Of a DNA stretch of 64,000 bases, positions 19,527-54,068 are shown one piece after another. Each line of letters opens with the position of its first letter. Positions within the stretch are counted from its first letter, which is position 1. The DNA lies in assembly GCA_038049695.1 (NCBI GenBank), contig CP142458.1, positions 41,385,501 to 41,449,500 of the forward strand. Direction: 5' to 3'. The position numbers were made by a program, and so were the translations under genes. The DNA is from Cinnamomum chago (taxonomy: Eukaryota; Streptophyta; Magnoliopsida; Laurales; Lauraceae). Under the pieces are notes generated by a model. That model was not told where the DNA came from and did no database searches. It was given only the letters and a program-made list of their open reading frames with translations.

Positions 19527-19606
19527 TTTCCATGTGATATCATGATCCCATGTTGTGTTTCTTACATTCCTAGATTAATTAAGGGCATGGTGGCTGCCTA
19601 TTAGGA

Positions 19607-25200: not shown

Positions 25201-25203
25201 TGC

Positions 25204-25214
25204 AAGTGGGAGAT
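25204..25214 (+). other. Polypurine tract of intact Copia
   Basis: AAGTGGGAGAT immediately precedes the 3' LTR (TGTTGGG at 25215), the expected plus-strand primer site. Confidence 0.85.
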
Positions 25215-29790: not shown

Positions 29791-32700
29791 TGTCACGCCC
29801 CCGAACCAGAACCTCGGGGGCGGGAATGGGATTAAGCATAAATATTATTTTTCTCCCAAGATCCGCGTGTGTTAAGACAACACATTTCAACACATTCTGA
29901 ATATTTTGCGGAAGCTTTCGTGGCGTTGCGACCCGGAGTCCGTGGCCATCGGATTCCGCATCGCACTCAACCATTAGCGTATAGCTATCATATCAAGAAT
30001 CATATCAGACTGGAGTAAACCATCACAATAAATTACAGAGCTGACAGTAACAGGATATTACATTCCCAAATATGTTCAAGTTACAATTATCAATGTACAT
30101 TAATTAAGAGTCCCAAGAAAAGGCTAATAAAAGCCATACAACAATAAGCTATAAACTACTACCCAAATGTGACGTAGCTCCGATGTCAAGCTCAATGTCT
30201 ACATGACATAGCCGACAAAACAACCTGTAAAACATGGCTCCACAGCCAACCCAAGCACTCATCTCGGGACGAAGAAATCTGAACCTGAGTACCAAAAGTA
30301 GTGGGTCAGACAAGACGGTCTGGCAGGTGGATGAAAAGATAACAAATATACTGAAGAATAAAACATAAGATAAATCATGCTAATCGATCAAATGCTGCAT
30401 ATAACTAAACGGGTGAAAAATCATGGATCTCGGGCAAAACATGTATTCGTTTCAAGCATGGGTAAAACATGAATATCTAATAAAACATGTGTTCATTTAC
30501 ATCATCTATAAACATAGATATTTGACAATCGGGTGTTCGTCTAAAACATGTATAAATATAGTGGTTTGACAAAACAAACGTTCATTTGAGACTTAGGTAA
30601 AAACATAAGTATACCACAAACCAGGTATTCGTAGCAGTCTGGCAAAACCAATGTCCATTTGAAACATATGGGGAAATACGGATGTTTAACAAACCGGGTG
30701 TTCATTTAAAACCGGTGTAACCAAAGCAATCTGTCAAAACTAGTGTTCATTTAAACATATTTCAAAGCATGGATATTTAACAGTCCGGGTATTCATTTAA
30801 AACAGGTATAAGCATAGATATCTGACAAACCAAATGTCGTTCAAAATAAAGCACGAATATTTAACAACTCGGGAATTCCTTTAAAACATGTGTAATCATA
30901 TAAATCTAGCAAGATCATTGATCGTTTGAAACATATGTAAAAGCATGGGTATTCACCCAACCGGCATTTATTTAAAACATGTGCGTGTACAAGGGACATA
31001 AAACAATATAATAATAACTGAATTTACATTGGAGAATATGAACACTTGTTTAAATAACAACTTTCATAAAGGAAACGAATCATTTATCAGAAAGCAAGTA
31101 AGCAATATAAAACGTGGCGGGTATCCAAGGAATCGGGAATTGGCAAGATGGCAACCACACGAAGCTAAGTCCTCTATCACTAAAGCGATAGAGCAATAAC
31201 TAGGCCCTGATCTCAGTCACTCGAGGTGAGGAGAAACAGGGGATCTCATATAAATACATATACATATACTAGGCACTGATCTCAGTCACTCGAGGTGAGG
31301 AGAAATAGTGGATCTCATGAATGCATATACATATACTATACATGACCACGGTAGCGAGCCGGGCATCGGGGACCACAGTAGCAATCTGCGGTATCGGGAC
31401 AAGACCACGGTAATGACCGGGTAGCGGGATCCAAACTGCAGCTGGCGGGACAAGAGGGGGATCTCCAAGTCGGTGGATCAGACCAACAGGGTTATCCAAG
31501 CTTAGTGGTGCCGACTCATAGGTCAAATACAATCGAGACATATGCAAGTAAACCAAGTACAAATACATAATCAAACGGGCAAGACGGGGGTGCTCAAGGG
31601 CACACTGTCATTTCATGTCGGGCAATACATTTCGGGACAAGAACTGTTACTAGAGTAACTTCAATGCTTTCGGGAGAACAAGTCATGTAATGCAAATCTT
31701 GGAAATTAAGAAATATAATGCACTATACCATTTCGGGAAGAATATTGATTTCAAGATCTATTTAAGTGAATAGGGGTCCCGTATGTCGATTATAATAATT
31801 ACTTGGTACTCCTTGAGTTTGAAGACATTCCGGGCTCCTTATGCACTTTTACTATTTTCAAAACTTAAAATGAGCTTATTGGTAGTACTAGATGTTACAA
31901 TAGCAAAAATCAAGATTATAAACAGTCCATCCTAGGCATGACATTAATCCGGAAACATCGAGCAACCTATTCAGTCACCGAAAGGAATAGAATTCGCGAT
32001 AACCAAGGGAAAGACTTGTGTTTAGATATAAAGAAGATATCGCGTCGTTCCATCCCGTTCGAGATTGAAATGGGTTGAACTTCGATGCCACCGAACCAAC
32101 TGTGAGGCGTGTCTGCTCAAGACATTCTCACACATGGTCCAAACAGTCCAAAAAGGGTAGCCAGGGTCCCACCTAAAACCAATAATTAGTGCCTCGATCA
32201 TCACCATTCTTTCTTTTAGATCCCTAGTCTTGGAGACTTTAGATTAGGGCACAATTAGTCTCAACACTAAGGTATATACCCCTAGGACTCATAGAAAGCC
32301 CAAAGGTTTCCAAAAAAAACAATATCAAATTTCACTGGACTCAAACTGAGTCCTCCAATCGGCCTGAAAAGCCTCCCAGTTAAAGACAGTCCGATCGATC
32401 TGGCGTGCAGGTCCGGGAAACACTTGATTTTTCCTTCCTTTTTCCTTTCCTTTCCAACACTTAAACAATCATATAGAACTATAAACAAGAAGACTAAAAT
32501 ACATGTTTCCAAGACAATAATATGAGCTAAAGAGCTCCTCATTTCAAGTTTCTCCCTTTCCATTCTTTCCATTCACAACAAATCTCAAGGTGGAGAAAAC
32601 TCATTCATGTGAAACCATTTGAAACCTTGCCAATATGATGCATACATTTTCCAAGCATGAACAAGAGGGAAATAAACTCATCAATAAGCACATTTCGAAA

Positions 32701-33778
32701 TCAATATTAATCATAGTAAAGACAACTACTAAAATCACCAAAACCCTTAATGAAACAAGATTTTTCTCACAAAACATGTTAATAATCAAAACAATCCAAT
32801 CATCCACTTGCCTTTGACTCTAATCAAGCAAACCAAGCTCCTAATCACCTCTCAAGCTCAAGATCCACAATCTCTACAAAAACCCCCAAAACAAACCCTA
32901 AAATGGGTTAAACAAGAAATGACAAGGAAACCTTTCAATAATCAAGGTGGAGCTTCTCTAAGGCTAGAAGATTACAAATCTAGAAGATGAAGAAGAACAC
33001 TTACTTGCAAGGTCCTCTAATGGACAAGGTAAGCTCAAAGGAAGTCTTGTGATGGAGGGTTCTCTTCACAAATGGTATCAATGGAAAGCTTGCAAGATGA
33101 GGAAGAGGTTGGTGATCTCCCTTTCTTGATTGATGAACTCTTGGTGTGGCTTGGAGATGGAGAAGTAAGAAGAAGAAGAGAAACACAAGGGAAAACACTA
33201 GGTTCAGCTGGCTGTGCTAGAAAAATGGAGAATGGGATGCAATGAAGGGGGTGGGTTCTCTTATGTTAACAAAGGAGGTTGGGTCCCACAACTTAAGGGA
33301 CTAGTTTGGCTGAAATCATCTAATTCGGGACCTCAGATGAATTCGACGAAGAAGGAAGAAATGATCGTCGAAATATCTAGTTTCCAAAAAGTATATGTTT
33401 CGTGGGTTTCGGGAATATCAAGTTTTGGGTACAGATTTGGTGTGCAATGACTGTTTTGCCCTCAAGGCCAAGAAATCGGGTTTCGGGTTCTCAAATGGAT
33501 ACGGGATCAACATGAAAGTTGTAGGATTCCTCAAGATGAATGCAACGGGCCAAAAACACAATACGAAACAAATCGGAAAAATCTCACAAGTAAATGCAAA
33601 GCCGAAAAGGGAACCCCCAAAGGGCCCCACAAGCTACCAAAGCACTCAAAAGCCCAAAACTAGAAGAAAAACCATTCCAGCTCACAAACTCAACCCAACA
33701 AATACTAATCCCACTAAAAGAAACTAATCCACAAATAAAATAACACTAATCCAAGAGATTAGGGGTCGGGTTCTCACA
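29791..33778 (-). mobile_element. Solo LTR, Gypsy-type family A, copy 2 (3988 bp)
   Basis: The + strand starts TGTCACGCCCCC and ends GGGTTCTCACA. It is flanked by perfect CTAAA duplications (29786-29790 and 33779-33783). It interrupts the hairpin element near its 3' end. It retains the leader intron (32874-33004). Its palindrome cluster is degraded (only CCGATCGATC remnants near 32390). Around 31199-31320 a segment of about 75 bp (TAGGC..TGATCTCAGTCACTCGAGGTGAGGAGAAA) is duplicated in tandem. No internal primer site or gag/pol is present. Confidence 0.85.
32874..33004 (-). other. Putative leader intron, LTR A copy 2 (131 bp)
   Basis: On the minus strand the segment begins CAA|GTAAGTG and ends TTTTTGTAG|AGATTG, with canonical GT and AG. 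It is precisely the segment missing in copy 1 and present in copy 3. Confidence 0.65.
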
Positions 33779-33964
33779 CTAAAGAAAAAAAGATTGAAGA
33801 ATGATCAAGCTCCAAGCATCATGAAGAATGAAGAAAAGAAAAGAGCCCAAGCTAAGAGAAGCATCCAAGAAGATTTCAAGACTTGTCCAGCTGAGGGGGA
33901 GTTGAAGACTTGGTGTGTTATTTCAGTGGTGAGTGTGTTGCCATCAAATTGCAAAGGGGAAGAT
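33779..33964 (+). other. 3' end of hairpin-element internal region with polypurine tract
   Basis: After the CTAAA duplication the element resumes with purine-rich DNA, homologous to 43060-43261, ending GCAAAGGGGAAGAT. That is its polypurine tract, directly before the 3' LTR. Purine-rich tracts resembling the tract also occur before the solo LTR, near 29598-29740. Confidence 0.75.
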
Positions 33965-36300: not shown

Positions 36301-37747
36301 CTGTGCATTTCTGGTGAAATTTGATATTGTTTTTTTTTTTTTGGAAACCTTTGGGCTTTCTATGAGTCCTAGAGGTATATACCTTAGTGTTAAGACCAAT
36401 TGTACCCTAATCTAAGGTCTCTAAGACTAGGGAACTAAAAGAAAGAATGGTGATGATCTAGGCGCTAATTCTCGATTTTAGGTGGGACCTTGGCTACCCT
36501 TTTTGGACTGTTGGACCATGTGTGAGAATGTCTTGAGCCGACACGCCTCACGGTGGGTTCGGTGACATCGAAGTTAATCCATTTCAATCTTGAACGGGAT
36601 GGAACGACGCGATATCTTCTTTATATCTAAACACAAGTCTATTTCCTTGGTTATCGCTAATTCTATTCCTTTCGATGACTAAGTAGGTTGCTCGATGTTT
36701 CCGGATTAATGTCATGCCTAGGATGGACCGTTTATAATCTTGATTCTTGCTATTGTAACATCTAGTACTACCCATAAGCTCATTTTAAGTTTTGAAAGTA
36801 GTAAAAGTGCATAAGGAGCCCGGAATGTCTTCAAACTCAAGGAGTACCAAGTAATTGTTATAATTGACATACGGGACCCCTATTCACTTAAATAGATCTT
36901 GAACCGATATTTTTACCCGAAATTGTTATAGTTCATTGTTTCACCTCTTTTCCCGAGATTTGCATTACATGACTTGTTTTCCCGGAAGCATTGGAGTTAC
37001 TCTAGTAACAGTCATTTGTCCCGAAGTGCATTGCATCACATGATATGACAGTGTGCCCTTGAGCACCCCGTTTTGCCCGTTTAATTATTGTACTTGATTT
37101 ACTTGTTTCCCCAAAAGCATTGAAGTTACACTAGTAACAGTTATTTGTCCCGAATGTATTGCCCGATATGAAGTGACAGTGTGCCCTTGAGCACCCCCGT
37201 TTTACCCGTTTATTTACTGTACTTGATTTACTTGCATATGTCTCGATTGGTTTTGACCTATGTGTTAGGGATTTTGTAATTTGCAATTTGGTGGATGCAT
37301 TTGCACTTTAGCATCATTTGAATTCACACACTAGCATTGTTTTTAGAAACCTTGAAATCTAGTTTTATTCATGCATAGCTTTTAAGATTTGGAAAAGCTT
37401 TTGTTTTATGCATGGTTTGGTTTTAAACTTGGATGCATTAGTTTTGAAACCCAAACTCTTTTGAAAACCTATTTCCTTGTGCATTATATTTGGAAAATCA
37501 TCTTGACAATTTAGGTTTGAACTTTGCATACATTCATCCCTTCATAATCAAATGTGTATGCATTGTTTTTGAAAAAGGAGTTTTTAGAAAATCAAGCTAG
37601 CCTTTGGTTTTAAAGTTTTGAATCTTTTTAGGCTTTGTGTGTTTCATGTTTTTATACTTCTTTGAATGATTTAAAACATGTGAAAAAGCTTGATTTTAAT
37701 GGCCCAAAAGATCCCCAAAGAAAATCTTCAAAAACCCAATAAATGGG

Positions 37748-37928
37748 AATTTCTGGACAGGCCCGGTCAACCGGCCAAGAGGCCCGGTCAACCGGCCAGA
37801 CTGCCGGTTAACCGGGTTTCTGAAGCTCAAACGGGCATTTTTATGACCGTTGTGTTTGGCCGATCAACCTGCCTGTCATGGCCGGTCAACCGGGGATATA
37901 GCCGTTGGGCTGTTTTGGGGATATAAAT
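37748..37928 (+). promoter_or_regulatory. LTR 1 promoter: CCGGTCAACCGG units and TATA box
   Basis: CCCGGTCAACCGGCC occurs twice, followed by CCGGTTAACCGG (perfect palindrome), GGCCGATCAACC and GGCCGGTCAACCGG. Then come GCCGTTGGGC and TATAAAT (37922-37928). LTR 2 is the same. LTR 3 has one additional CCGGTCAACCGG unit (22 bp inserted near 49771) and minor changes. Architecture matches the promoter at 15362-15539, though the palindrome sequence differs. Confidence 0.6.
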
Positions 37929-38722
37929 GAGTTCTTTCCTTTGTCTTTGGTTGGAGATTTTAAAACCTTCTTTGAGGAGCTTTGAGAGAAGACAAAGGGG
38001 ATGATCTAAGAGACATCAAGGGGTCATTAAGTAAAGCTTAAGCTTGGATCAACTAAGTTAAATCTCCAAGTAAGTTTTACTTTTAATTAATCATTTGTTA
38101 TGTGCTTTATTTGAATCTTTGGAAAATGATTTCAAGCATGATAACAATGATGTGTTGAATCCTTTCTTCCTTTCATCTTTGATATTCAAGATTGGATTCA
38201 TCACTTTGATTTCAACCCAAGTTTTGTTTTAAACTTTCTTAATCATGCTTAGCCAAAGTCTTTGATTTCCTTTAATGCATGATTCTTTGTCTTGGTTGAA
38301 ACTTGCTTGTTGTTTTCATTCATTTAAACATTAGTAAAATCTATTTGTTTTTGAAAGCAACATGCACATGCATCACATGTTCTAAATTAGTCATTTTCAT
38401 ACAACTTGTTAGTCCTTGATTTTCATGTCATAAACAAGTTGAATTTCATACATGTGATTTGCATAAGACTTCAATCAAATCTTTTATGAGCTTTAAACTT
38501 TGAAATGCCTTGAGCATACATTTGAATAAGCCTTATTTTTAAACTTGATTGAAGTCATCACACACACACATCATGAGCATACACTTTTGCATACATAGAG
38601 TGTTTGTGTGAGTTTGTATTACACTTTCATATCCGCCTATTTAAGAGGCAATTTCATTGAGCTAAAATTGTAATCTCTTAGAGTGTTGAGTAAACACTTT
38701 CTTTGAGAAATCTTGAATTGTG

Positions 38723-38890
38723 TAAGGTTATTGCTTAGCCTAAGAAAAGCATCTTGTAAGGTTATTGCTTAGCCTAAGAAAAGCATTTTGTAAAGGTTAT
38801 TGCTTAGCCTAGAAAAGCACATTGTAAGGTTGTTGTTGAGCCTAGAAAAACAACTTTGTAAGGGTTATTGCTTAGCCTTTGAAAAAGCAT
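38723..38890 (+). repeat. Tandem small hairpins with covarying stems in LTR R-U5
   Basis: Five units of about 34 bp carry the constant loop text AGCCTAAGAA or AGCCTAGAAA. Four have stem TGCTT/AAGCA (38732-38751 and following), and one has GTTGTT/AACAAC (38832-38854). The related LTR at 14995 has one unit with GATGTT/AACATC around 16861-16882. The block is downstream of the TATA box, so it would be in the RNA leader. LTR 3 has one unit fewer (35-bp deletion). Confidence 0.7.
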
Positions 38891-39272
38891 ACATAGTGGA
38901 AATCCGGTGGGGTGATTGGATTCACAAGCCGGTAGTGGACGTAGGCACTGAGGCCGAACCACTATAAACATTGGTGTTGTGGTGCTTGCTTTTGTGGTGA
39001 TTGTTTATTTTAGCTTCCGCATATTGTATGGTTAATCATCACATGTGACTAGTTTTTGTTAAGAATTTAAAATTGGTCTAAATTGGTCATAGTTGTAGCA
39101 AACCCTATTCACCCCCCCCCCCCCCCCCTCTAGGGTTAGGATCCTCGTGGACTTTCAATTGGTATCAGAGCCAAGTGCTCTATCCCTTAGGATCAAGTGT
39201 TTGGAACTCTTGATTAGGTGTAAAAACCTAGAGTTAAAATCCTAGAGTTGTGCTTATTTGAAAATCATTAGA

Positions 39273-40847
39273 ATGGACTCCACTATGCTAGACTTTTTAG
39301 ATTCTTCTAGACCCCTCATTCTTCCTTCTCTTGGAGATTCAAACCCTCACTTAAATGAATATCAATTTGACTCTAAAGAGGAAGAAAATGAGTATGATGA
39401 AGATGAACTTCAACAAGCCTATAATGAATTATATACATTATCTTCAAAGCTTGATAAGAGAAATAAAAGTCTAAAAGAAGAATCAAATAGACTAAACAAA
39501 GAGCTAGACTCTTCTAAAGATGAACTTAGAGAGAAAGAAGAAGTAATAAAATGTCTAGACTCTAAGTTCATGATCTCTTTAAATAACCTATCCAACATTC
39601 AAGATGAACTAAAAGAATTAAAGATGGGTTATGAAAATGTCAATAAGGAAAATCTAAAACTAAGAGATAAATTACAAAGGCAAGGTAAAGACTCTAACAA
39701 TCTTGAATCTAAATTGACTATCTCTAAAGAAAATTTATCAAATGCTCAAGATGAATTAAATAAGACTAAGATAAATTGTGATGAGCTTAAAAAGGAAAAT
39801 TGTAACCTAAGAGATACAATTAAAAGACAAGATGAAAACATTAACTATTTAAAATCCAAGTTGACAATTTCAAATGAAAATTTGTCTAATGCACAAAGTA
39901 ATTCAAAAACTTTAGAACTTGGATCTAATGCTGTTAATGAGCTTAATTCTAAGTTAAAACTTGCCTATGAAGAGCTAAACAATTATAAGGAAATTGAAAA
40001 TGAACTTTCAAAAGTCAAACATGAAAATTCAATCCTTATAACCAAAGTCACTCAACTTGAAAACTATAAACAAAAGTATGAGTGCAAGGTTACCCAAAGT
40101 GAAGATAGACTTGAAAAATTATTTAAAATGGGTAAACCTCATGGAGATAGGACGGGTATTGGATTCAATAGGAATATGTCTTATGACCCTAAATTCACCA
40201 ACACTTTTGTGAAAGGTGAGTCCTCTTTCTCTAGCACTCTTCCTCCCTTGCCCAAATCAAAATGTAATTATTGTGGCATTGAAGGGCATTTTACATTTGA
40301 GTGCAAACTAAGGAAAAGAAGCTATGTGTCTAAACCCATCTTTGAACTCAAGAAGGGAGAATCTAAATCTATGAAGGGTAAGACACTTAAAAACAAAGAA
40401 GACTCCAAAAAGACTAAACAAGTTAAACCAATTAACAAGGAGTCTCCTAAGATAGATTCTAAAAAGCTTAAACAAGTTAAAACAAGCTTGAAAGAATCTA
40501 AGAACAAAAAGCTTCTCAACCTATCTCCCTTATATGAACCCATGAAAGAACTTTTGAAGAAAGTTGCTAAGTTAAATCTAAATTTCAAAAGTCAAGTAAA
40601 GGGAGAAAATAAGAAGAAAAGAAAAGTGAAGCAATCCCCTAAGAAACAAACTCACCAACATCAAAAGACTAATCACCATTCCAAGCCAAATTTAGTAAAA
40701 TCTAAATATCATGGTGATAAGTTCAAATTGAAAATTTATCAAGTTAAATCTCCTATAGTTGGTGAGAAGTCCAAAATAGACCTCAAAGTTCAACCCTCCC
40801 AAGACCTTAGGTGGATTCCCAAAGTTATCTACTTAGACAAACCTTAG
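39273..40847 (+). CDS. Gag-like coiled-coil zinc-knuckle protein, copy 1 (524 aa)
   Basis: The frame opens at 39258, but the Met at 39273 (MDSTMLDFLDSSRPLILPS) looks the better start. Order: acidic N-terminus; long coiled coil to about residue 285 with degenerate internal repeats (LTISKENLSNAQDEL and LTISNENLSNAQ); a short conserved stretch (GKPHGDRTGIGFNRN) typical of the region before a Copia zinc knuckle; one CCHC knuckle (CNYCGIEGHFTFEC); and a very Lys-rich C-terminal tail. The N-terminal capsid domain and all pol domains are absent. It lies about 115 bp after the primer site. It probably binds element RNA and self-associates through the coiled coil; that is inference. It is identical in sequence to the second copy at 45268. 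Confidence 0.75.
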   Translation: MDSTMLDFLDSSRPLILPSLGDSNPHLNEYQFDSKEEENEYDEDELQQAYNELYTLSSKLDKRNKSLKEESNRLNKELDSSKDELREKEEVIKCLDSKFMISLNNLSNIQDELKELKMGYENVNKENLKLRDKLQRQGKDSNNLESKLTISKENLSNAQDELNKTKINCDELKKENCNLRDTIKRQDENINYLKSKLTISNENLSNAQSNSKTLELGSNAVNELNSKLKLAYEELNNYKEIENELSKVKHENSILITKVTQLENYKQKYECKVTQSEDRLEKLFKMGKPHGDRTGIGFNRNMSYDPKFTNTFVKGESSFSSTLPPLPKSKCNYCGIEGHFTFECKLRKRSYVSKPIFELKKGESKSMKGKTLKNKEDSKKTKQVKPINKESPKIDSKKLKQVKTSLKESKNKKLLNLSPLYEPMKELLKKVAKLNLNFKSQVKGENKKKRKVKQSPKKQTHQHQKTNHHSKPNLVKSKYHGDKFKLKIYQVKSPIVGEKSKIDLKVQPSQDLRWIPKVIYLDKP

Positions 40848-40863
40848 GGTCTTGAACTTTCAT

Positions 40864-42640
40864 TGACCAACCTATTCTTTTTAAGTTAAATCACTTTGTT
40901 GGTCATGATTGCTTTGCATTTTTGTTCTTTCTTAGTTACATTTCATAAAATGCATTGTTTCTTTATGATCAATTGATTTTGTTTTCATACACCATTCTAA
41001 GTTACACCTCATGGTTTTCAAAATCTTTTGATTATAATTTCATCATGTTTGATTTGCTTTTTGCACTCATATGTCTTGCATTGCATTTCATTACATGACT
41101 AATTGATTGTGTTTTTAAAAGCTTTCATAGCTAATTTATTCATGATCAATTGTTGTTGAATCATTTGTGTATATGTCATAGTAAGATTATTTGAACAAAT
41201 GATTTGAATCAATTCAAGTTTTTCCATGGATTCCTAAGTTATACTTTAATATGGAAAATCATTGTTTTGAAAATTCAACTTGTATGTGTTTCAATTAAGT
41301 TATATCTTTTAATATACATGTTGAAAATTGTTCTTCAAAGCCATTCTTTTATGCTCATTGTTGGATTTTGTTTATTGAAATGATTTGAAGATTGTTTAAT
41401 GGAAATGCTTTTTAACATCATTAGTTATAATCTTCTAAGCATGTTCCATGTTATCATTTCCTTTTCTTTTGGTTTCATTATCTTAGAATTGGAAATGTAT
41501 GTTGTTTGCATCTTTGCTTATTTAGTTATTCTTTTTATATGCAAATGACTATTGGTTCCATGTATGGTTGTGATCTTAGTTATACTTGTAGAAACCATAC
41601 TAGAACCCAAATCCATCCTCTATGCCTTATGGTTATTTCTTTTTGGATGGTTATGATGTTGATTCATGTATACCTTCTTAATGTTGTCATCTTTGTACAT
41701 GTTTCAACTTCATAATAGTGTTCTTGATCATATGAACCCCTTTGAAATCCATTTCTTGTATTTCATAGTTATAACTCTTGTTTGATGGATATCTTAGTGT
41801 TGAATTCATATGATCTAGACACTTTGGAAATTGCATGCATTTCAAAGTCATATCCTTTTACATTGCAATTTACCTTGTTCATCACTATGCTCTATAGTTA
41901 TATCTATATAAGTGATGAATATGCATTTATGATGCTTGATGGAGTTTGCCACATTCTTGCTCTTTATCATGTTATCAAATTCAATTGGTTTCTATTGGTA
42001 TAATTTTTGATTGATTTGATTTCTTGAGAATGTGATAAACCTTGTGTGCATTGGATTGAACTTGATAAGTAATATGATTGTTCCATATCACACACCATTA
42101 GCATCATAATGTTCATGTTGCCACCTCTTTTGCTCATATAGGTATATCTCATGACCACCATGTTTATGTGTTCATAATATTGGTTGGTTATTAGTTGAGG
42201 TTGGCTTCATGCTTGAATTTCATTTCACTCATTCATGCACTTTAATAGTCATATTTATTGATTGAATGAAATGAGTTCAAAACTTACATAGCATATGATT
42301 TTCATAAGTTATATTGATTGATGCTATGTTTGAGTAAACCCCATATCATCGATAGCTCTAATTTGGATTTCTCATAATAGTTATACTTTTAAATCCATTT
42401 TAGAGTGATTGAGTTTATAGTCACATCCTTTAATCTCAATTGATATGTTTATTTCAATTGGTATCCATGATCGTTTCTCCCATTAGACCTTGCTCTCTTT
42501 TGGTAATTTGATCATATGAGCCCTATAGTTAAATGAATCTAATCCTTTCCTTGAAGTTGACCCTCACTTGGTTAAACCATCTACTTCTTGAATCTAATAG
42601 TTATATCTTGTCAAAAGCTTGACAAAAGAAGAGAATGGAT
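40864..42640 (+). repeat. Array of about 20 covarying hairpins, tandem unit 1
   Basis: Inverted repeats with 20-32 nt loops occur about every 75-80 bp. Examples: TGACCAAC/GTTGGTCA (40864/40898), GCATTTT/AAAATGC (40916/40947), AATCATTTGT/ACAAATGATT (41159/41195), TTTTCCAT/ATGGAAAA (41220/41251), TTCAACTTGTAT/ATACATGTTGAA (41274/41314), AAATTGCA/TGCAATTT (41828/41864), TTCATCACT/AGTGATGAA (41878/41911), ACATAGCAT/ATGCTATGT (42286/42321) and CTCTAATTTGGATTT/AAATCCATTTTAGAG (42356/42391). Loops repeatedly carry AGTTATATCT, AGTTATACTT, AGTCATATCC or similar in the same orientation. No ORF spans the region. Confidence 0.8.
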
Positions 42641-42830
42641 TGAGGGGAGTGTAAACCTTCATAGGAAGAATTAGTTTTGATCAAATTCACCCTTGGATTG
42701 CCTTTGAGCCCTTAGAGATAACTTTCATGCATGATAGCCTGTTATGAATTTCATTTTCAATTCCATTTGTTAACAGGTGCTACTAAAGGTATTTTCCTTA
42801 TTTCATGTGTGTAGGTTCCTTTGCAATTTA

Positions 42831-43261
42831 ATGTCAAAGGGGGAGAGAGTTTAAGTACTCAAAGATCTCCTACTCATCAAAGGGGGAGAGAGTTCGAGAG
42901 TTCAAGTACTCGAAGATCTCCTATCCATAAAAGGGGGAGAGTTGTCCAAGCTTCCAAAGGGGAGAGAATGCATACCTTGCCAAAGGAAGAAAGAGGCATG
43001 GTCAAAGGGGGAGAGCAAATAGAAGAAAGAAAGCTTGGAGCTAAAAGAGATGCTTGGCTAAAGAGAGGAAGATGGAAAGAAAGCTTGAAGAATGATCAAG
43101 CTCCAAGCATCAAGAAGATTGAAGAAAAGAGCCCAAGAGCCCAAGCTAAGAGAAGAAGCATCCAAGAAGATTTCAAGACTTGTCCAGCTTAGGGGGAGCT
43201 GAAGACTAAGTGTGAAATGTCAATGATGAGTAAGTTGCCATCAAATTGCAAAGGGGGAGAT
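42831..43261 (+). repeat. Multiple polypurine tracts before LTR 2
   Basis: AAAGGGGGAGAG or near copies occur at about 42836, 42878, 42930, 42957 and 42999. The true polypurine tract AAAGGGGGAGAT at about 43250-43261 directly abuts LTR 2. A 123-codon frame covers the block (42821-43192), but its Arg/Ser-rich composition simply follows the purine repeats. A short repeated text TCAAGTACTCGAAGATCTCC also occurs within it. Confidence 0.65.
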
Positions 43262-45152
43262 TGTTAGGGATTTTGTAATTTGCAATTTGGTGGATGCATT
43301 TGCACTTTAGCATCATTTGAATTCACACACTAGCATTGTTTTTAGAAACCTTGAAATCTAGTTTTATTCATGCATAGCTTTTAAGATTTGGAAAAGCTTT
43401 TGTTTTATGCATGGTTTGGTTTTAAACTTGGATGCATTAGTTTTGAAACCCAAACTCTTTTGAAAACCTATTTCCTTGTGCATTATATTTGGAAAATCAT
43501 CTTGACAATTTAGGTTTGAACTTTGCATACATTCATCCCTTCATAATCAAATGTGTATGCATTGTTTTTGAAAAAGGAGTTTTTAGAAAATCAAGCTAGC
43601 CTTTGGTTTTAAAGTTTTGAATCTTTTTAGGCTTTGTGTGTTTCATGTTTTTATACTTCTTTGAATGATTTAAAACATGTGAAAAAGCTTGATTTTAATG
43701 GCCCAAAAGATCCCCAAAGAAAATCTTCAAAAACCCAATAAATGGGAATTTCTGGACAGGCCCGGTCAACCGGCCAAGAGGCCCGGTCAACCGGCCAGAC
43801 TGCCGGTTAACCGGGTTTCTGAAGCTCAAACGGGCATTTTTATGACCGTTGTGTTTGGCCGATCAACCTGCCTGTCATGGCCGGTCAACCGGGGATATAG
43901 CCGTTGGGCTGTTTTGGGGATATAAATGAGTTCTTTCCTTTGTCTTTGGTTGGAGATTTTAAAACCTTCTTTGAGGAGCTTTGAGAGAAGACAAAGGGGA
44001 TGATCTAAGAGACATCAAGGGGTCATTAAGTAAAGCTTAAGCTTGGATCAACTAAGTTAAATCTCCAAGTAAGTTTTACTTTTAATTAATCATTTGTTAT
44101 GTGCTTTATTTGAATCTTTGGAAAATGATTTCAAGCATGATAACAATGATGTGTTGAATCCTTTCTTCCTTTCATCTTTGATATTCAAGATTGGATTCAT
44201 CACTTTGATTTCAACCCAAGTTTTGTTTTAAACTTTCTTAATCATGCTTAGCCAAAGTCTTTGATTTCCTTTAATGCATGATTCTTTGTCTTGGTTGAAA
44301 CTTGCTTGTTGTTTTCATTCATTTAAACATTAGTAAAATCTATTTGTTTTTGAAAGCAACATGCACATGCATCACATGTTCTAAATTAGTCATTTTCATA
44401 CAACTTGTTAGTCCTTGATTTTCATGTCATAAACAAGTTGAATTTCATACATGTGATTTGCATAAGACTTCAATCAAATCTTTTATGAGCTTTAAACTTT
44501 GAAATGCCTTGAGCATACATTTGAATAAGCCTTATTTTTAAACTTGATTGAAGTCATCACACACACACATCATGAGCATACACTTTTGCATACATAGAGT
44601 GTTTGTGTGAGTTTGTATTACACTTTCATATCCGCCTATTTAAGAGGCAATTTCATTGAGCTAAAATTGTAATCTCTTAGAGTGTTGAGTAAACACTTTC
44701 TTTGAGAAATCTTGAATTGTGTAAGGTTATTGCTTAGCCTAAGAAAAGCATCTTGTAAGGTTATTGCTTAGCCTAAGAAAAGCATTTTGTAAAGGTTATT
44801 GCTTAGCCTAGAAAAGCACATTGTAAGGTTGTTGTTGAGCCTAGAAAAACAACTTTGTAAGGGTTATTGCTTAGCCTTTGAAAAAGCATACATAGTGGAA
44901 ATCCGGTGGGGTGATTGGATTCACAAGCCGGTAGTGGACGTAGGCATTGAGGCCGAACCACTATAAACATTGGTGTTGTGGTGCTTGCTTTTGTGGTGAT
45001 TGTTTATTTTAGCTTCCGCATATTGTATGGTTAATCATCACATGTGACTAGTTTTTGTTAAGAATTTAAAATTGGTCTAAATTGGTCATAGTTGTAGCAA
45101 ACCCTATTCACCCCCCCCCCCCCTCTAGGGTTAGGATCCTCGTGGACTTTCA
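43262..45152 (+). repeat. LTR 2 (shared middle LTR), 1891 bp
   Basis: It begins immediately after a polypurine tract and ends immediately before a primer site, so it serves as 3' LTR of unit 1 and 5' LTR of unit 2. It has LTR 1-type palindrome number and small-hairpin number, a 13-C run, and T at the position where LTR 1 has C. Confidence 0.92.
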
Positions 45153-45267
45153 ATTGGTATCAGAGCCAAGTGCTCTATCCCTTAGGATCAAGTGTTTGGA
45201 ACTCTTGATTAGGTGTAAAAACCTAGAGTTAAAATCCTAGAGTTGTGCTTATTTGAAAATCATTAGA

Positions 45268-46842
45268 ATGGACTCCACTATGCTAGACTTTTTAGATTCT
45301 TCTAGACCCCTCATTCTTCCTTCTCTTGGAGATTCAAACCCTCACTTAAATGAATATCAATTTGACTCTAAAGAGGAAGAAAATGAGTATGATGAAGATG
45401 AACTTCAACAAGCCTATAATGAATTATATACATTATCTTCAAAGCTTGATAAGAGAAATAAAAGTCTAAAAGAAGAATCAAATAGACTAAACAAAGAGCT
45501 AGACTCTTCTAAAGATGAACTTAGAGAGAAAGAAGAAGTAATAAAATGTCTAGACTCTAAGTTCATGATCTCTTTAAATAACCTATCCAACATTCAAGAT
45601 GAACTAAAAGAATTAAAGATGGGTTATGAAAATGTCAATAAGGAAAATCTAAAACTAAGAGATAAATTACAAAGGCAAGGTAAAGACTCTAACAATCTTG
45701 AATCTAAATTGACTATCTCTAAAGAAAATTTATCAAATGCTCAAGATGAATTAAATAAGACTAAGATAAATTGTGATGAGCTTAAAAAGGAAAATTGTAA
45801 CCTAAGAGATACAATTAAAAGACAAGATGAAAACATTAACTATTTAAAATCCAAGTTGACAATTTCAAATGAAAATTTGTCTAATGCACAAAGTAATTCA
45901 AAAACTTTAGAACTTGGATCTAATGCTGTTAATGAGCTTAATTCTAAGTTAAAACTTGCCTATGAAGAGCTAAACAATTATAAGGAAATTGAAAATGAAC
46001 TTTCAAAAGTCAAACATGAAAATTCAATCCTTATAACCAAAGTCACTCAACTTGAAAACTATAAACAAAAGTATGAGTGCAAGGTTACCCAAAGTGAAGA
46101 TAGACTTGAAAAATTATTTAAAATGGGTAAACCTCATGGAGATAGGACGGGTATTGGATTCAATAGGAATATGTCTTATGACCCTAAATTCACCAACACT
46201 TTTGTGAAAGGTGAGTCCTCTTTCTCTAGCACTCTTCCTCCCTTGCCCAAATCAAAATGTAATTATTGTGGCATTGAAGGGCATTTTACATTTGAGTGCA
46301 AACTAAGGAAAAGAAGCTATGTGTCTAAACCCATCTTTGAACTCAAGAAGGGAGAATCTAAATCTATGAAGGGTAAGACACTTAAAAACAAAGAAGACTC
46401 CAAAAAGACTAAACAAGTTAAACCAATTAACAAGGAGTCTCCTAAGATAGATTCTAAAAAGCTTAAACAAGTTAAAACAAGCTTGAAAGAATCTAAGAAC
46501 AAAAAGCTTCTCAACCTATCTCCCTTATATGAACCCATGAAAGAACTTTTGAAGAAAGTTGCTAAGTTAAATCTAAATTTCAAAAGTCAAGTAAAGGGAG
46601 AAAATAAGAAGAAAAGAAAAGTGAAGCAATCCCCTAAGAAACAAACTCACCAACATCAAAAGACTAATCACCATTCCAAGCCAAATTTAGTAAAATCTAA
46701 ATATCATGGTGATAAGTTCAAATTGAAAATTTATCAAGTTAAATCTCCTATAGTTGGTGAGAAGTCCAAAATAGACCTCAAAGTTCAACCCTCCCAAGAC
46801 CTTAGGTGGATTCCCAAAGTTATCTACTTAGACAAACCTTAG
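45268..46842 (+). CDS. Gag-like coiled-coil zinc-knuckle protein, copy 2 (524 aa)
   Basis: This is the same protein as at 39273-40847, residue for residue, from the second unit of the tandem array: acidic start, coiled coil, CCHC knuckle, Lys-rich tail. The complete identity points to a duplication too recent for any substitution in the coding region, or to an assembly duplicate. The unit's primer site (TGGTATCAGAGCC near 45155) precedes it. Confidence 0.75.
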   Translation: MDSTMLDFLDSSRPLILPSLGDSNPHLNEYQFDSKEEENEYDEDELQQAYNELYTLSSKLDKRNKSLKEESNRLNKELDSSKDELREKEEVIKCLDSKFMISLNNLSNIQDELKELKMGYENVNKENLKLRDKLQRQGKDSNNLESKLTISKENLSNAQDELNKTKINCDELKKENCNLRDTIKRQDENINYLKSKLTISNENLSNAQSNSKTLELGSNAVNELNSKLKLAYEELNNYKEIENELSKVKHENSILITKVTQLENYKQKYECKVTQSEDRLEKLFKMGKPHGDRTGIGFNRNMSYDPKFTNTFVKGESSFSSTLPPLPKSKCNYCGIEGHFTFECKLRKRSYVSKPIFELKKGESKSMKGKTLKNKEDSKKTKQVKPINKESPKIDSKKLKQVKTSLKESKNKKLLNLSPLYEPMKELLKKVAKLNLNFKSQVKGENKKKRKVKQSPKKQTHQHQKTNHHSKPNLVKSKYHGDKFKLKIYQVKSPIVGEKSKIDLKVQPSQDLRWIPKVIYLDKP

Positions 46843-46858
46843 GGTCTTGAACTTTCAT

Positions 46859-48635
46859 TGACCAACCTATTCTTTTTAAGTTAAATCACTTTGTTGGTCA
46901 TGATTGCTTTGCATTTTTGTTCTTTCTTAGTTACATTTCATAAAATGCATTGTTTCTTTATGATCAATTGATTTTGTTTTCATACACCATTCTAAGTTAC
47001 ACCTCATGGTTTTCAAAATCTTTTGATTATAATTTCATCATGTTTGATTTGCTTTTTGCACTCATATGTCTTGCATTGCATTTCATTACATGACTAATTG
47101 ATTGTGTTTTTAAAAGCTTTCATAGCTAATTTATTCATGATCAATTGTTGTTGAATCATTTGTGTATATGTCATAGTAAGATTATTTGAACAAATGATTT
47201 GAATCAATTCAAGTTTTTCCATGGATTCCTAAGTTATACTTTAATATGGAAAATCATTGTTTTGAAAATTCAACTTGTATGTGTTTCAATTAAGTTATAT
47301 CTTTTAATATACATGTTGAAAATTGTTCTTCAAAGCCATTCTTTTATGCTCATTGTTGGATTTTGTTTATTGAAATGATTTGAAGATTGTTTAATGGAAA
47401 TGCTTTTTAACATCATTAGTTATAATCTTCTAAGCATGTTCCATGTTATCATTTCCTTTTCTTTTGGTTTCATTATCTTAGAATTGGAAATGTATGTTGT
47501 TTGCATCTTTGCTTATTTAGTTATTCTTTTTATATGCAAATGACTATTGGTTCCATGTATGGTTGTGATCTTAGTTATACTTGTAGAAACCATACTAGAA
47601 CCCAAATCCATCCTCTATGCCTTATGGTTATTTCTTTTTGGATGGTTATGATGTTGATTCATGTATACCTTCTTAATGTTGTCATCTTTGTACATGTTTC
47701 AACTTCATAATAGTGTTCTTGATCATATGAACCCCTTTGAAATCCATTTCTTGTATTTCATAGTTATAACTCTTGTTTGATGGATATCTTAGTGTTGAAT
47801 TCATATGATCTAGACACTTTGGAAATTGCATGCATTTCAAAGTCATATCCTTTTACATTGCAATTTACCTTGTTCATCACTATGCTCTATAGTTATATCT
47901 ATATAAGTGATGAATATGCATTTATGATGCTTGATGGAGTTTGCCACATTCTTGCTCTTTATCATGTTATCAAATTCAATTGGTTTCTATTGGTATAATT
48001 TTTGATTGATTTGATTTCTTGAGAATGTGATAAACCTTGTGTGCATTGGATTGAACTTGATAAGTAATATGATTGTTCCATATCACACACCATTAGCATC
48101 ATAATGTTCATGTTGCCACCTCTTTTGCTCATATAGGTATATCTCATGACCACCATGTTTATGTGTTCATAATATTGGTTGGTTATTAGTTGAGGTTGGC
48201 TTCATGCTTGAATTTCATTTCACTCATTCATGCACTTTAATAGTCATATTTATTGATTGAATGAAATGAGTTCAAAACTTACATAGCATATGATTTTCAT
48301 AAGTTATATTGATTGATGCTATGTTTGAGTAAACCCCATATCATCGATAGCTCTAATTTGGATTTCTCATAATAGTTATACTTTTAAATCCATTTTAGAG
48401 TGATTGAGTTTATAGTCACATCCTTTAATCTCAATTGATATGTTTATTTCAATTGGTATCCATGATCGTTTCTCCCATTAGACCTTGCTCTCTTTTGGTA
48501 ATTTGATCATATGAGCCCTATAGTTAAATGAATCTAATCCTTTCCTTGAAGTTGACCCTCACTTGGTTAAACCATCTACTTCTTGAATCTAATAGTTATA
48601 TCTTGTCAAAAGCTTGACAAAAGAAGAGAATGGAT
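46859..48635 (+). repeat. Array of covarying hairpins, tandem unit 2
   Basis: It is an exact-looking repeat of 40864-42640, offset by 5995 bp, with all hairpins conserved. It gives no independent evolutionary evidence because the units are virtually identical. Confidence 0.8.
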
Positions 48636-48825
48636 TGAGGGGAGTGTAAACCTTCATAGGAAGAATTAGTTTTGATCAAATTCACCCTTGGATTGCCTTT
48701 GAGCCCTTAGAGATAACTTTCATGCATGATAGCCTGTTATGAATTTCATTTTCAATTCCATTTGTTAACAGGTGCTACTAAAGGTATTTTCCTTATTTCA
48801 TGTGTGTAGGTTCCTTTGCAATTTA

Positions 48826-49256
48826 ATGTCAAAGGGGGAGAGAGTTTAAGTACTCAAAGATCTCCTACTCATCAAAGGGGGAGAGAGTTCGAGAGTTCAA
48901 GTACTCGAAGATCTCCTATCCATAAAAGGGGGAGAGTTGTCCAAGCTTCCAAAGGGGAGAGAATGCATACCTTGCCAAAGGAAGAAAGAGGCATGGTCAA
49001 AGGGGGAGAGCAAATAGAAGAAAGAAAGCTTGGAGCTAAAAGAGATGCTTGGCTAAAGAGAGGAAGATGGAAAGAAAGCTTGAAGAATGATCAAGCTCCA
49101 AGCATCAAGAAGATTGAAGAAAAGAGCCCAAGAGCCCAAGCTAAGAGAAGAAGCATCCAAGAAGATTTCAAGACTTGTCCAGCTTAGGGGGAGCTGAAGA
49201 CTAAGTGTGAAATGTCAATGATGAGTAAGTTGCCATCAAATTGCAAAGGGGGAGAT
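48826..49256 (+). repeat. Multiple polypurine tracts before LTR 3
   Basis: This is a copy of the block at 42831-43261. AAAGGGGGAGAG tracts are repeated within about 200 bp, followed by the terminal tract AAAGGGGGAGAT adjoining LTR 3 at 49257. Confidence 0.65.
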
Positions 49257-51129
49257 TGTTAGGGATTTTGTAATTTGCAATTTGGTGGATGCATTTGCAC
49301 TTTAGCATCATTTGAATTCACACACTAGCATTGTTTTTAGAAACCTTGAAATCTAGTTTTATTCATGCATAGCTTTTAAGATTTGGAAAAGCTTTTGTTT
49401 TATGCATGGTTTGGTTTTAAACTTGGATGCATTAGTTTTGAAACCCAAACTCTTTTGAAAACCTATTTCCTTGTGCATTATATTTGGAAAATCATCTTGA
49501 CAATTTAGGTTTGAACTTTGCATACATTCATCCCTTCATAATCAAATGTGTATGCATTGTTTTTGAAAAAGGAGTTTTTAGAAAATCAAGCTAGCCTTTG
49601 GTTTTAAAGTTTTGAATCTTTTTAGGCTTTGTGTGTTTCATGTTTTTATACTTCTTTGAATGATTTAAAACATGTGAAAAAGCTTGATTTTAATGGCCCA
49701 AAAGATCCCCAAAGAAAATCTTCAAAAACCCAATAAATGGGAATTTCTGGACAGGCCCGGTCAACCGGCCATGTGTGGCCGGTCAACCGGCCAAGAGGCC
49801 CGGTCAACCGGCCAGACTGCCGGTTAACCGGGTTTCTGAAGCTCAAACGGGCATTTTTATGACCGTTGTGTTTGGCCGGTCAACCTGCCTGTCATGGTCG
49901 GTCAACCGGGGATATAGCCGTTGGGCTGTTTTGGGGATATAAATGAGTTCTTTCCTTTGTCTTTGGTTGGAGATTTTAAAACCTTCTTTGAGGAGCTTTG
50001 AGAGAAGACAAAGGGGATGATCTAAGAGACATCAAGGGGTCATTAAGTAAAGCTTAAGCTTGGATCAACTAAGTTAAATCTCCAAGTAAGTTTTACTTTT
50101 AATTAATCATTTGTTATGTGCTTTATTTGAATCTTTGGAAAATGATTTCAAGCATGATAACAATGATGTGTTGAATCCTTTCTTCCTTTCATCTTTGATA
50201 TTCAAGATTGGATTCATCACTTTGATTTCAACCCAAGTTTTGTTTTAAACTTTCTTAATCATGCTTAGCCAAAGTCTTTGATTTCCTTTAATGCATGATT
50301 CTTTGTCTTGGTTGAAACTTGCTTGTTGTTTTCATTCATTTAAACATTAGTAAAATCTATTTGTTTTTGAAAACAACATGCACATGCATCACATGTTCTA
50401 AATTAGTCATTTTCATACAACTTGTTAGTCCTTGATTTTCATGTCATAAACAAGTTGAATTTCATACATGTGATTTGCATAAGACTTCAATCAAATCTTT
50501 TATGAGCTTTAAACTTTGAAATGCCTTGAGCATACATTTGAATAAGCCTTATTTTTAAACTTGATTGAAGTCATCACACACACACATCATGAGCATACAC
50601 TTTTGCATACATAGAGTGTTTGTGTGAGTTTGTATTACACTTTCATATCCGCCTATTTAAGAGGCAATTTCATTGAGCTAAAATTGTAATCTCTTAGAGT
50701 GTTGAGTAAACACTTTCTTTGAGAAATCTTGAATTGTGTAAGGTTATTGCTTAGCCTAAGAAAAGCATCTTGTAAGGTTATTGCTTAGCCTAGAAAAGCA
50801 CATTGTAAGGTTGTTGTTGAGCCTAGAAAAACAACTTTGTAAGGGTTATTGCTTAGCCTTTGAAAAAGCATACATAGTGGAAATCCGGTGGGGTGATTGG
50901 ATTCACAAGCCGGTAGTGGACGTAGGCATTGAGGCCGAACCACTATAAACATTGGTGTTGTGGTGCTTGCTTTTGTGGTGATTGTTTATTTTAGCTTCCG
51001 CATATTGTATGGTTAATCATCACATGTGACTAGTTTTTGTTAAGAATTTAAAATTGGTCTAAATTGGTCATAGTTGTAGCAAACCCTATTCACCCCCCCC
51101 TCTAGGGTTAGGATCCTCGTGGACTTTCA
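49257..51129 (+). repeat. LTR 3 of tandem element, 1873 bp
   Basis: It has the same ends as LTR 1 and is followed by the CTATG duplication. Differences from LTR 2 account exactly for the length change: +22 bp (extra palindrome unit near 49771), -35 bp (one small-hairpin unit lost near 50780) and -5 in the C-run (8 C). At least three substitutions occur, near 49877, 49898 and 50372. Confidence 0.92.
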
Positions 51130-54068
51130 CTATGAGTCGGCATCACTAAGCTTGGATACCTTGTCGGTTTGATCCACCGACTTGGAAATCCCTCTCCTGT
51201 CCCGCCAGCTGCAATTTGGATCCCGATACCCGGTTATTACCGTGGTCCCGTCCCGATACCTGGTTCGCTACCGTGGTCCCGTTCCCGTATATTTATATTG
51301 TATATATGATTTACGTTGAGTCTCCTCACCTTGTGTGACTGAGACCAACGTCCCATTATACTCTTGTCACTTCGGTGATAGAGGACTTAGCTTCTTGTGA
51401 TTGTCATCTTGCCAGTTCCCGATTCCTTCGATACCCGACATGTTTTATATTGCTTACTTGCTTTCCGATGAATAATTCATTTCCTTTATGAAAGTTTTTA
51501 TTTAAACAAGTGTTAATATTCTCCAATGTAAATTCAGTTATTATTATATTGCCTTCTGTTCTTGGTACCCGCACATGTTTTAAATGAATGCCGGTTGGGC
51601 GAATACCCATGCTTTTACTTATGTTTCACACGATCGATGGTTTTACTAGATTTATGTGATTTCACATGTTTTAAATGATTACCCGATTCGTTAAATACCC
51701 ATGCTTTTACATATGTTTCAAACGATCAATGATTTTGCTAGATTTATATGATTACACATGTTTTAAAGGAATACCCGAATTTTTAAATATCCGAGCTTGC
51801 TTTAAAGGACATTTGGTTTGTCAGATATCTATGTTTATACCTGTTTTTAAATGATACCCGATTTGTTAAATATCCATGCTTTGAAATATGTTTCAAATGA
51901 CACTTGTTTGCCAGATCCCTACGTTTATACCTGTTTTAAACGATATCGGCTTGTTAAATATCCGTATTTTCACATATGTTTCAAATGGACATTGGTTTTG
52001 CTAGACTGCTATGAATACCTGGTTTGTTGTATACTTGTGTTTTTACTTAAGTTTTAAATGAACGTTGTTTTGCCATACCGCTATGTTTATACATGTTTTA
52101 GACGAACACCCGATTGTCAAATATCTATGATTATAGATGATGTAAATGAACACATGTTTTATTAGATATTCATGTTTTACCCATGCTTGAAATGAATACA
52201 GGTTTTCCCGAGATTCCCGACTTTACACCCGTTTAATTATATGCAGCATTTGATCGAGTATCATGATTTATCTTATGTTTTATTCTTCAGTATATTTGTT
52301 ATCTTTTCATCCACCTGCCAGACCGTCGTGTCTGACCCACTACTTTTGGTACTCAGGTTCAGATTTCTTCGCCCCGAGTTGAGTGTTTTATTGGTTGTGG
52401 AGCCATGCTTTGCAGGTTGGTTTGTCGGCTATGTCATGTAGACATTGAGCTTGACATCGGAGCTACGTCACATTTGGGTAGTAGTTTATAGCTTTTTGTT
52501 GTATGGCTTTTATTAGCCTTTTTCTTGGGATTCTTAATTAATGCACATTGATAATTGTAACTTGAACATATTTGGGAATGTAATATCCTGTTACTGTCAG
52601 CTCTGTATTTTATTGTGATGGTTAATCCAGTCTGATATGATTCTTGATATAATAGCTTAGTGCTAAAGGTTGAGTGCGACGCGGAATCCGATGGGTGTCC
52701 GCGGTGAGGATATCACAACCATAAATGAATATTTCTAATAAGTGCGGAAGCATGTAGCAAATCAAATAGTCAGACTATCTCTAGTCATGAAAGCATTAAC
52801 ATCAAGTATAAAAAACTGTATCAGAATGAGCAATGCTCAAATAATATGTTTCCCAAAAGTAAGTTAAAGTTTAACAAAAGATCACTTATTTACATTTTCC
52901 AAAACTAGAGGCCAACAAAGGCCAATATAAACAAAACAATAACCCAATGAATGGTTAAATAGTTTTCCCCAAAATGTTACGCTTCTTATAGCAACCCGAT
53001 GTCTACATAACATCGTCAGCACGCCACTCGACTAGAGGTTGCGGCTCACCTACCGCCTCCTCAGGCTCCTCCGCAAGGAAACCGGCAACGGGACCTGAGT
53101 ACCAAAGCAAATGGGTCAGACACGACGGTCTGGCAAGAGAATGAAAGATACAATAACAGGTAGTAATAAAGGAAATACCTTGAAAAGCATAGAATCTGTT
53201 TAAACAAGAACTCTCATAAAGTAGATAAATCATTTGTTAGAAAATGGGCAAATAAGATAAAACATATAAGGTAACTAAGGAATCGAGAACTAATCAAGAT
53301 GGCAATCACATAAAGCTAAGTCCTCTGTCACTAAAGTGACAACAGTATAACGGGACGTTGATCTCAGTCACACAAGGTGGGGAGATTCAACGTAAATTAT
53401 ATATACAATATAAATATACGGGACGGGACCACGGTAGCGAACCAGGTATCGGGACGGGACCACTATAATAGACCGGGTATCAGGATCCAAACTGCAGCTG
53501 GCGGGACGAGAAGGGATCTCCAAGTCGGTGGATCAAACTGACAAGGTATCCAAGCTTAGTGATGCCGACTCATAGGACAAATAACAAATCGAGACATATG
53601 CAAGTAAATCAAGTACAATAAATAAACGAGCAAGACGGGGATGCTCAAGGGCAGACTGTCATTTCCTGTCGGGCAATACATTTCAGGACAAATAACGTTA
53701 CTAGTGTAACTATCATGCTTTCGGGAAAACAAATCATATAATATAAATCTTGGAATGAAGTGAAACAATGAACTATAACCATTTCGGGTAAAATACTGGT
53801 TTCAAGATCTATTTAGTATATAGGGGTCCCGTATGTCGCTTATAATAAAGACTTGGTACTCCTCAAGTTAGAAGACATTCCGGGCTCCTTATGCACCTTG
53901 AATTTCCAAAACTTCGAATGAAATCTTTGTGATATGGTTTCTTCCTCAAATGACCTCATACAATGCTTAATCAATCTCCTTGGCATAGAGGGGTTCCCAG
54001 AGAATAGACCCAACCATTGAAACAGTTGAACATTGTCCCAAACATAGCCTATGCCAGACGAACCGCAT

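Follow-up and report, generated by a model that had tools for sequence, protein, structure and literature searches.

Results

Organization of the locus

The window analyzed here, a stretch of 64,000 nucleotides of the Cinnamomum chago genome (contig CP142458.1, positions 41,385,501 to 41,449,500, forward strand), contains two related LTR elements on the + strand, designated A and B. Element A begins with LTR 1 (37263–39157; TGTTAG...TTTCA), which carries four exact CCGGTYAACCGG palindromes at 37763–37893 and a C17 run at 39112–39128. The LTR/internal junction with the primer-binding site ATTGGTATCAGAGC follows at 39158–39171, in agreement with the published Sirevirus junction (Bousios et al, 2010; PMC2829016). 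The sole open reading frame (ORF) of at least 150 aa in the element (39273–40847, 524 aa from ATG) encodes a protein with a CCHC zinc knuckle and, by eye, a coiled coil; the knuckle scores below the Pfam cut-off (E 0.0001), and the Pfam domain search returned no match to a capsid domain. The linker between this gag-like ORF and the polypurine tracts is occupied by an array of 27 motif-centred stem-loops (40848–42660), which confirms that the array belongs to the non-coding part of a retroelement internal region, as an earlier sequence-only reading had stated. The polypurine tract (PPT) cluster (42836–43260) comprises five exact AAAGGGGGAGA tracts (six AGGGGGAG octamers), the terminal AGGGGGAG octamer lying at 43252–43259 and starting 10 bp upstream of LTR 2. 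An inverted repeat spans the PPT/LTR junction (43242–43289), with CAAATTGCAAA at 43242–43252 and TTTGCAATTTG at 43279–43289.

LTR 2 (43262–45152) is common to two internal regions. The second contains a further copy of the array (46843–48655), 100% identical to the first, and is followed by LTR 3 (49257–51129). A 5-bp repeat, CTATG, flanks the whole three-LTR block (37258–37262 before LTR 1 and 51130–51134 after LTR 3). The stretch 37263–51129, with its three LTRs and two internal regions, thus has the appearance of a single insertion, at or after which the doubling probably took place.

Element B is older, with LTRs at 14995 and 33965 and later insertions. A copia element (17492–27235; repeats at 17492–17791 and 25215–25514, open frame at 21172–25200) splits it between leader and array, and another insertion lies at ~29790–33780. 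Elsewhere in the window, positions 1–1550 (− strand) and genomic locus L073 represent a Sirevirus-like element with a canonical copia Gag (PF14223, E 1.5e-31), further CCHC-like knuckles and pol in broken frames; its tail contains three AGGGGGAG tracts. The translated open frames at 58640–60084 (− strand) suggest a plant gene for a class III peroxidase.

Sirevirus-type features of elements A and B

Judged by their sequence features, A and B are non-autonomous Sirevirus-type (Ty1/copia) LTR derivatives. Six AGGGGGAG tracts lie in the linker of A and none in its LTR 1, leader or ORF. The terminal tract, 10 bp from the 3′ LTR, reads AGGGGGAG-AT-TGTTAG and is flanked by CAAATTGCAAA/TTTGCAATTTG. 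The 5′ junction reads TTTCA-ATTGG-TATCAGAGC (39153–39171), and poly-C runs near the LTR 3′ end measure 17, 13 and 8 in LTRs 1, 2 and 3, respectively. Multiple AGGGGGAG tracts, the 10-bp terminal tract, the junction inverted repeat, CA/ATTGG followed by TATCAGAGC, poly-C at the LTR end and CCGG..CCGG LTR palindromes are likewise features of Sireviruses (Bousios et al, 2010; PMC2829016). Each LTR of A has four exact CCGGTYAACCGG palindromes, and LTR 3 has six with at most one mismatch, compared with a repeated palindromic CGG-CCG motif described as present at least eight times in all Sireviruses (PMC2829016), a count that may be per element. Such palindromes are already known from Sirevirus LTRs (PMC2829016) and are a different, DNA-type feature from the array.

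A differs from the published Sireviruses (PMC2829016) in having neither pol nor a Gag capsid domain. In place of a large Sirevirus Gag, with central CCHC, downstream coiled coil and capsid, A encodes a CCHC protein without a capsid match, and the GIGF-CCHC stretch of this protein is only weakly similar to the Gag tail of the Sirevirus-like neighbour (hhalign E 0.029, probability 1.7%). No pol-sized ORF that could encode a Sirevirus-clade pol was present in element A or in the B-type genomic copy L061. Because capsid and pol are missing, we regard the elements as non-autonomous derivatives. Viral relatives of the A ORF were also sought, and none of 23 pattern matches in viral contigs was confirmed. 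The Sirevirus linker is reported to be very divergent, and the account of it in PMC2829016 has inverted repeats where gag meets pol and at the PPT border, and describes no hairpin array. Scanning the Sirevirus-like neighbour L073 gave 0–3 matches per block and strand, against 0–2 in shuffles, so that an array of hairpins was rejected there.

The array combines a recurring loop motif with private stems

Loops of the array units contain AGTTATATCTT-like motifs on one strand, and the stems have no common sequence between units. With at most two mismatches, the motif TAGTTATATCTT occurs seven times on the + strand of the array (30 shuffles: mean 0.4, maximum 4) and never on the − strand; with at most three, it occurs 16 times on + (shuffles 4.0, maximum 9) and three times on − (shuffles 1.3). 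When 32 window blocks of 2 kb were scanned, the top + strand counts (18, 18, 14 and 11) were those of the A and B array blocks; the next-highest block count was 8, in the LTR/leader block of B, and the − strand of the A blocks gave 9. The motif is absent from the LTR of A at up to two mismatches.

Stems were scored at 28 sites, 16 found by the motif alone (at most three mismatches) and 12 degenerate ones chosen by eye. The best flanking stem averaged 11.43 at the 16 motif-only sites, compared with 7.71 in 40 shuffles (sd 0.47, maximum 8.99), and 11.50 at all 28 sites, compared with 7.82 (sd 0.32, maximum 8.43; 40 shuffles). Taken individually, 27 of the 28 stems exceeded the shuffled median, and 17, 13 and 8 lay above the 90th, 95th and 99th percentiles, respectively. 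Block-shuffling gave a similar contrast (7.81, sd 0.40, maximum 8.60, n = 60, against 11.59 observed). Swapping arms between units lowered the score from 11.58 for 26 own pairs to 8.04 over 650 combinations (sd of the mean 0.38), and information outside the motif (0.084 bits) equals sampling noise (0.086 bits), so the stems differ between units. These controls bear out the sequence-only reading in its central claims: that the hairpin array is real, that its stems are unlike one another and yet self-complementary, and that the loop motif keeps one orientation.

Two motif-only sites share one unit, and one of them was dropped, leaving 27 units where the sequence-only reading had counted at least 20 between 40864 and 42440; the array continues to ~42643. 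Unit spacing is 40–108 nt, with 19 of 26 gaps at 50–75 nt, and not 75–80 bp as first read. Stems in A consist of 9–21 interrupted pairs and loops of 13–42 nt. The first unit (40860–40908) has its stem at 40860–40871/40898–40908 and its motif at 40883; a later one (41274–41325), with the motif at 41297, pairs 41274–41287 with 41312–41325. The unit with the motif at 41766 (41726–41815) does possess the second, outer stem previously noted, at 41726–41736/41805–41815. Among the strongest is the unit at 42349–42412 (stem 42349–42370/42391–42412, motif at 42378), and the last one spans 42572–42643 with its motif at 42598. Watson-Crick pairs account for 301 of 380 stem positions. The minimum-energy fold keeps at least half of the designated stem pairs in 26 of the 27 units, whose borders are set by the stem.

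The array is thus defined by the motif and own-arm pairing, rather than by unusual overall stability. A generic hairpin finder run without the motif detected 17 hairpins in the array, against 15.2 in 60 shuffles (maximum 18), whereas their summed score was 229.5, against 183 (sd 13.7, maximum 209.5; 60 shuffles); the LTR and the ORF likewise had elevated summed scores (12 shuffles each). RNAfold z-scores of 300-nt windows in the array ranged from −0.25 to −4.56 on the + strand, and LTR parts reached −5.4. Energies in the array were moderately low on both strands, which fold equally well (mean z −2.32 on −, −2.14 on +), and no lower than in LTR parts. Of the two comparisons with shuffled sequence suggested in the sequence-only reading, the inverted-repeat search therefore sets the array apart by summed strength and not by hairpin number, and RNA folding does not distinguish it from the LTR.

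Hairpin content is raised in the LTR of A at 37713–38612 too (z to −5.4 on +), in part through the CCGGTYAACCGG palindromes. A plain tandem repeat was rejected: Tandem Repeats Finder reported just two tiny repeats in the array (41980–41999 and 42607–42628), since nothing but the loop motif and the pairing is repeated from unit to unit. Nor is the array a known RNA family, Rfam giving four sub-threshold matches in 39100–43300 and none above the gathering score, or coding sequence, with zero open stretches of at least 150 aa.

Sister element B retains the array after loss of the protein gene

The hairpin array of B (27247–29424, + strand) is 78% identical to that of A in its 5′ part (27247–27651) and 89% identical in its 3′ part (28294–29424), which enclose a strongly diverged middle with nine scored units (27652–28293, + strand). 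The array stretch 42108–42227 is almost identical in A and B, much of the remainder diverging more; it may be under extra constraint or reflect recent exchange. In the window, the B middle shows only short matches to A, the best covering 44 columns at 84%. In the B-type genomic copy L060, part of the middle aligns to A 41358–41546 at 67%, which rules out a sequence unrelated to A and makes the middle in part a distant homologue, so that tests on it are not fully independent. At the top 10 motif sites of the middle, the motif scored 5.72 against 4.01 in shuffles (maximum 5.18), and the stems 10.16 against 7.19 (sd 0.57, maximum 8.49; 60 shuffles). Own arms in B scored 11.84 and swapped arms 8.06, a control that leans towards the claim, since the score used to choose the B sites takes the stem into account.

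First-look candidates in the genome (14 contigs, 1.06 Gb) came to 6331 with the A array as query, 6528 with that of B and 2535 with the B middle; the best 40 of each search were scored. Almost the whole ORF is gone from B-type copies, and the array, LTRs, junction and PPTs are kept. These copies align to just the last ~110 bases of the A ORF, and tblastn with the A ORF gave zero matches in L060, L061 and L070. The longest open stretch of L061 is 109 aa in 5188 bases, which makes it a large internal region without coding capacity, as in large retrotransposon derivatives (LARDs). Our main argument for a role in cis is that a family without the protein gene has kept the array together with its LTR ends and priming sites. 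Among the best-scored genome candidates, which here are close copies, there was no autonomous partner sharing these LTRs.

Copies of both families are also strung head to tail at regular intervals, sharing LTRs in the window (37263–51129), and elsewhere at C7:21182746-21282562, C10:6674560-6729496, C11:25430321-25474051 and C5:55728517-55828863. Head-to-tail B-type copies account for 20 of 40 matches at ~5221-bp spacing and 11 of 40 at ~5275 bp; A-type ones account for 8 of 82 matches. Near C5:55.7-55.8 Mb lie 15 of 40 scored places. In copy L045, a stretch of ~226 bases (~4270–4495) matches its own reverse complement at 81% and is probably a MITE inserted into the array.

Stems vary less than loops among genomic copies

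After removal of identical copies and of rows with more than 20 N, 45 rows, including a shorter duplicate of A (L029) left out of the later row set, mismatched A at 4.4% of stem, 10.2% of loop, 7.7% of motif and 5.5% of spacer positions. In the B set (seven rows), variants per site amounted to 0.065 in stems, 0.221 in loops, 0.140 in the motif and 0.116 in spacers; the B middle alone showed a weak stem/loop contrast (stem 0.108, loop 0.167, motif 0.063). Overall, the variability of stems is about half that of loops.

As a yardstick, we compared the array with codon positions of the ORF in two sets of copies, whose choice biases each set in the opposite direction. Four array-selected copies (of six loci, L003–L008) diverged by 2.4% in stems, 5.7% in loops and 12.2% at ORF third positions, and 12 ORF-selected copies (of 30 loci, L029–L058) by 6.8%, 13.1% and 5.5%, respectively. 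Averaged over both sets, loops (9.4%) resemble third codon positions (8.8%) and stems (4.6%) second positions (4.3%). Copies near one another in the array may be far apart in the ORF and vice versa (L003–L008 compared with L031–L056). This rank reversal points to recombination between ORF and array and suggests mosaic elements made by template switching.

The compensatory changes looked for in genomic copies did not exceed expectation per changed pair. Double Watson-Crick changes numbered 15, against 2–11 in 12 slid registers, the true register having about three times more Watson-Crick pairs; an early covariation signal (20 double types against 4–14 in slid registers) was gone after normalization by changed Watson-Crick pairs. 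Between A and B, the compensatory rate was 7 of 85 changed pairs (8.2%; slid registers 0–14%), and no double changes were seen among the seven B rows. In the 67% stretch, 21 of the 26 Watson-Crick pairs compared were unchanged, one had changed but still paired and four were broken. Changes from Watson-Crick pairs were single in 391 cases and double in 15. The ratio of G-U to A-C was 17:8 in A (64% G-U expected) and 18:6 in B (68% expected), in stems found by symmetric scoring. In a tree analysis with loops as reference, changes forming G-U had a stem/loop ratio of 0.44 and those forming A-C one of 0.29, an excess that disappears with ORF third positions as reference; L045 was left out of the former analysis and of part of the latter because its long branch appears to come from the insertion. 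The structural case therefore draws on the pairing seen in units of unlike sequence and on the slow evolution of stems, and not on covariation between copies.

Discussion

From the anatomy of the element, the retention of the array and the constraint on its stems, we infer binding and packaging. Our tentative but preferred reading is that the array serves as a cis-acting multivalent recognition array on the genomic RNA, which would be bound by an RNA-binding protein and used in packaging. Many weak, similar loops (roughly AGUUAUAUCUU) would be presented by locally folding hairpins, whose private stems would let each fold on itself and avoid its neighbours. The protein, in all likelihood either the nucleocapsid part of a helper-Sirevirus Gag or the CCHC protein that the element itself encodes, would bind the loops repeatedly and so capture the element RNA and condense it into particles. 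A loop motif shared across several stem-loops is also what characterizes viral packaging signals, the analogy from which binding is proposed; the looseness of the motif, which across copies is more variable than the stems, counts against recognition. Also to be set against this reading are the compensatory rate, not raised per changed pair, the lack of a clear preference for G-U over A-C, the equal folding of both strands, folding z-scores that parts of the LTR match, the weak stem/loop contrast in the B middle and the missing capsid domain of the gag-like protein. Packaging and protein binding had both been put forward in the sequence-only reading, and the retention of the array in ORF-poor B favours such cis roles over ones tied to the ORF. 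On balance unlikely, though conceivable, is the further step that the array and LTR ends would suffice for capture by another element's particles, loss of the ORF with the array kept having made a reduced, multiplied parasite. This B type may comprise perhaps thousands of copies, judging from the 2535 first-look candidates of which the best 40 were scored.

Five other explanations were weighed, of which RNA stability or compaction survives best and is nevertheless improbable. The hairpins would then compact a long 3′ region without coding function, or shield it from decay, from RNA interference or from surveillance coupled to translation, with no specific protein reading the loops. Slow stems next to a more variable motif and fast-evolving loops fit such a role, as do the mostly Watson-Crick pairs (301 of 380 in A). 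It has no need, however, of a recurring, strand-specific loop motif, and motif-like sites with stems are found even in the diverged middle of B.

A role at the DNA level is less probable again. Hairpins in cDNA, or cruciforms, might for example cause reverse transcriptase pausing or template switching near the polypurine tracts, or provide sites for DNA-binding proteins. Both strands fold equally well, the preference for G-U is not clear, and the differing ORF/array divergence of the two copy sets suggests recombination, all of which such a role would accommodate; against this, a strand-specific loop motif on unlike stems would be more natural for a single-stranded RNA ligand. We give about as little weight, or slightly less, to a functionless mutational product, in which template switching during reverse transcription (quasipalindrome correction) makes and equalizes the hairpins. 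Stem sequences private to units and largely Watson-Crick are what this process would leave behind, but correction predicts many double changes, where 15 double and 391 single ones were seen, and no slowing of stems, which evolve at about half the loop rate. It also leaves the loop motif unexplained.

It is very unlikely that the hairpins act as a miRNA-like source of small RNAs, or a decoy, for host silencing or for the element against silencing. Stems of 9–21 interrupted pairs with loops of 13–42 nt are short for plant Dicer substrates. In favour of such a role, small RNAs and miRNA-like structure are correlated in maize transposons (PMC10760457). Dimerization, another idea of the sequence-only reading, can practically be set aside in the form of loop-loop kissing, which has a parallel in Ty1 RNA, modelled to dimerize via kissing hairpins (PMC5454406): AGUUAUAUCU is almost self-complementary by eye, but the loops of the 27 units pair no better than shuffled ones (−4.08 against −4.11 kcal/mol, sd 0.15, 40 shuffles).

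The sequence-only reading knew of no described feature of this kind, and no such hairpin array in retrotransposons appeared among the matches listed in the open-licence literature, at the level of titles and abstract openings; the host element itself is recognizable as Sirevirus-type. A known type of non-autonomous element thus apparently carries an undescribed ordered structure. The terms "packaging signal", "stem-loop" and "secondary structure" are absent from the main text of a December 2025 review of host factors (PMC12786077), a silence which suggests that the choice of plant LTR retrotransposon RNAs for packaging is little known. Should the array prove to be a packaging device, multivalent RNA recognition would gain a model system that is compact and testable, the persistence of gag-less families would be explained, and a linker domain noted for its divergence would be shown to be able to hold ordered RNA structure.

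Among known systems, element A resembles TR-GAG elements, LTR elements with a gag-like ORF only, and differs from them in that its ORF lacks a capsid domain. Element B corresponds to LARD elements, defined by LTRs and a large non-coding internal region (PMC7215508), and the head-to-tail arrays of both families are comparable to the tandem arrays of Cassandra (PMC7215508). BARE2 of barley sets a precedent for the maintenance of a gag-less family through signals in cis: it cannot make Gag, its signals for dimerization and packaging are conserved, and BARE1 particles package it; the account of this pair in PMC3735527 describes no hairpin array. In RNA viruses and hepatitis B virus, many stem-loops share a common coat-protein recognition feature (PMC6281560); those signals are dispersed over the genome and backed by experiments with coat proteins, whereas the units described here form one non-coding block known from its sequence. 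Another plant LTR element with repetitive 3′ non-coding sequence is Retand, whose tandem repeats lie between pol and the 3′ LTR (PMC11963269). The Retand repeats are alike in sequence, whereas the units of the present array share only their loop motif and the pairing of their own arms.
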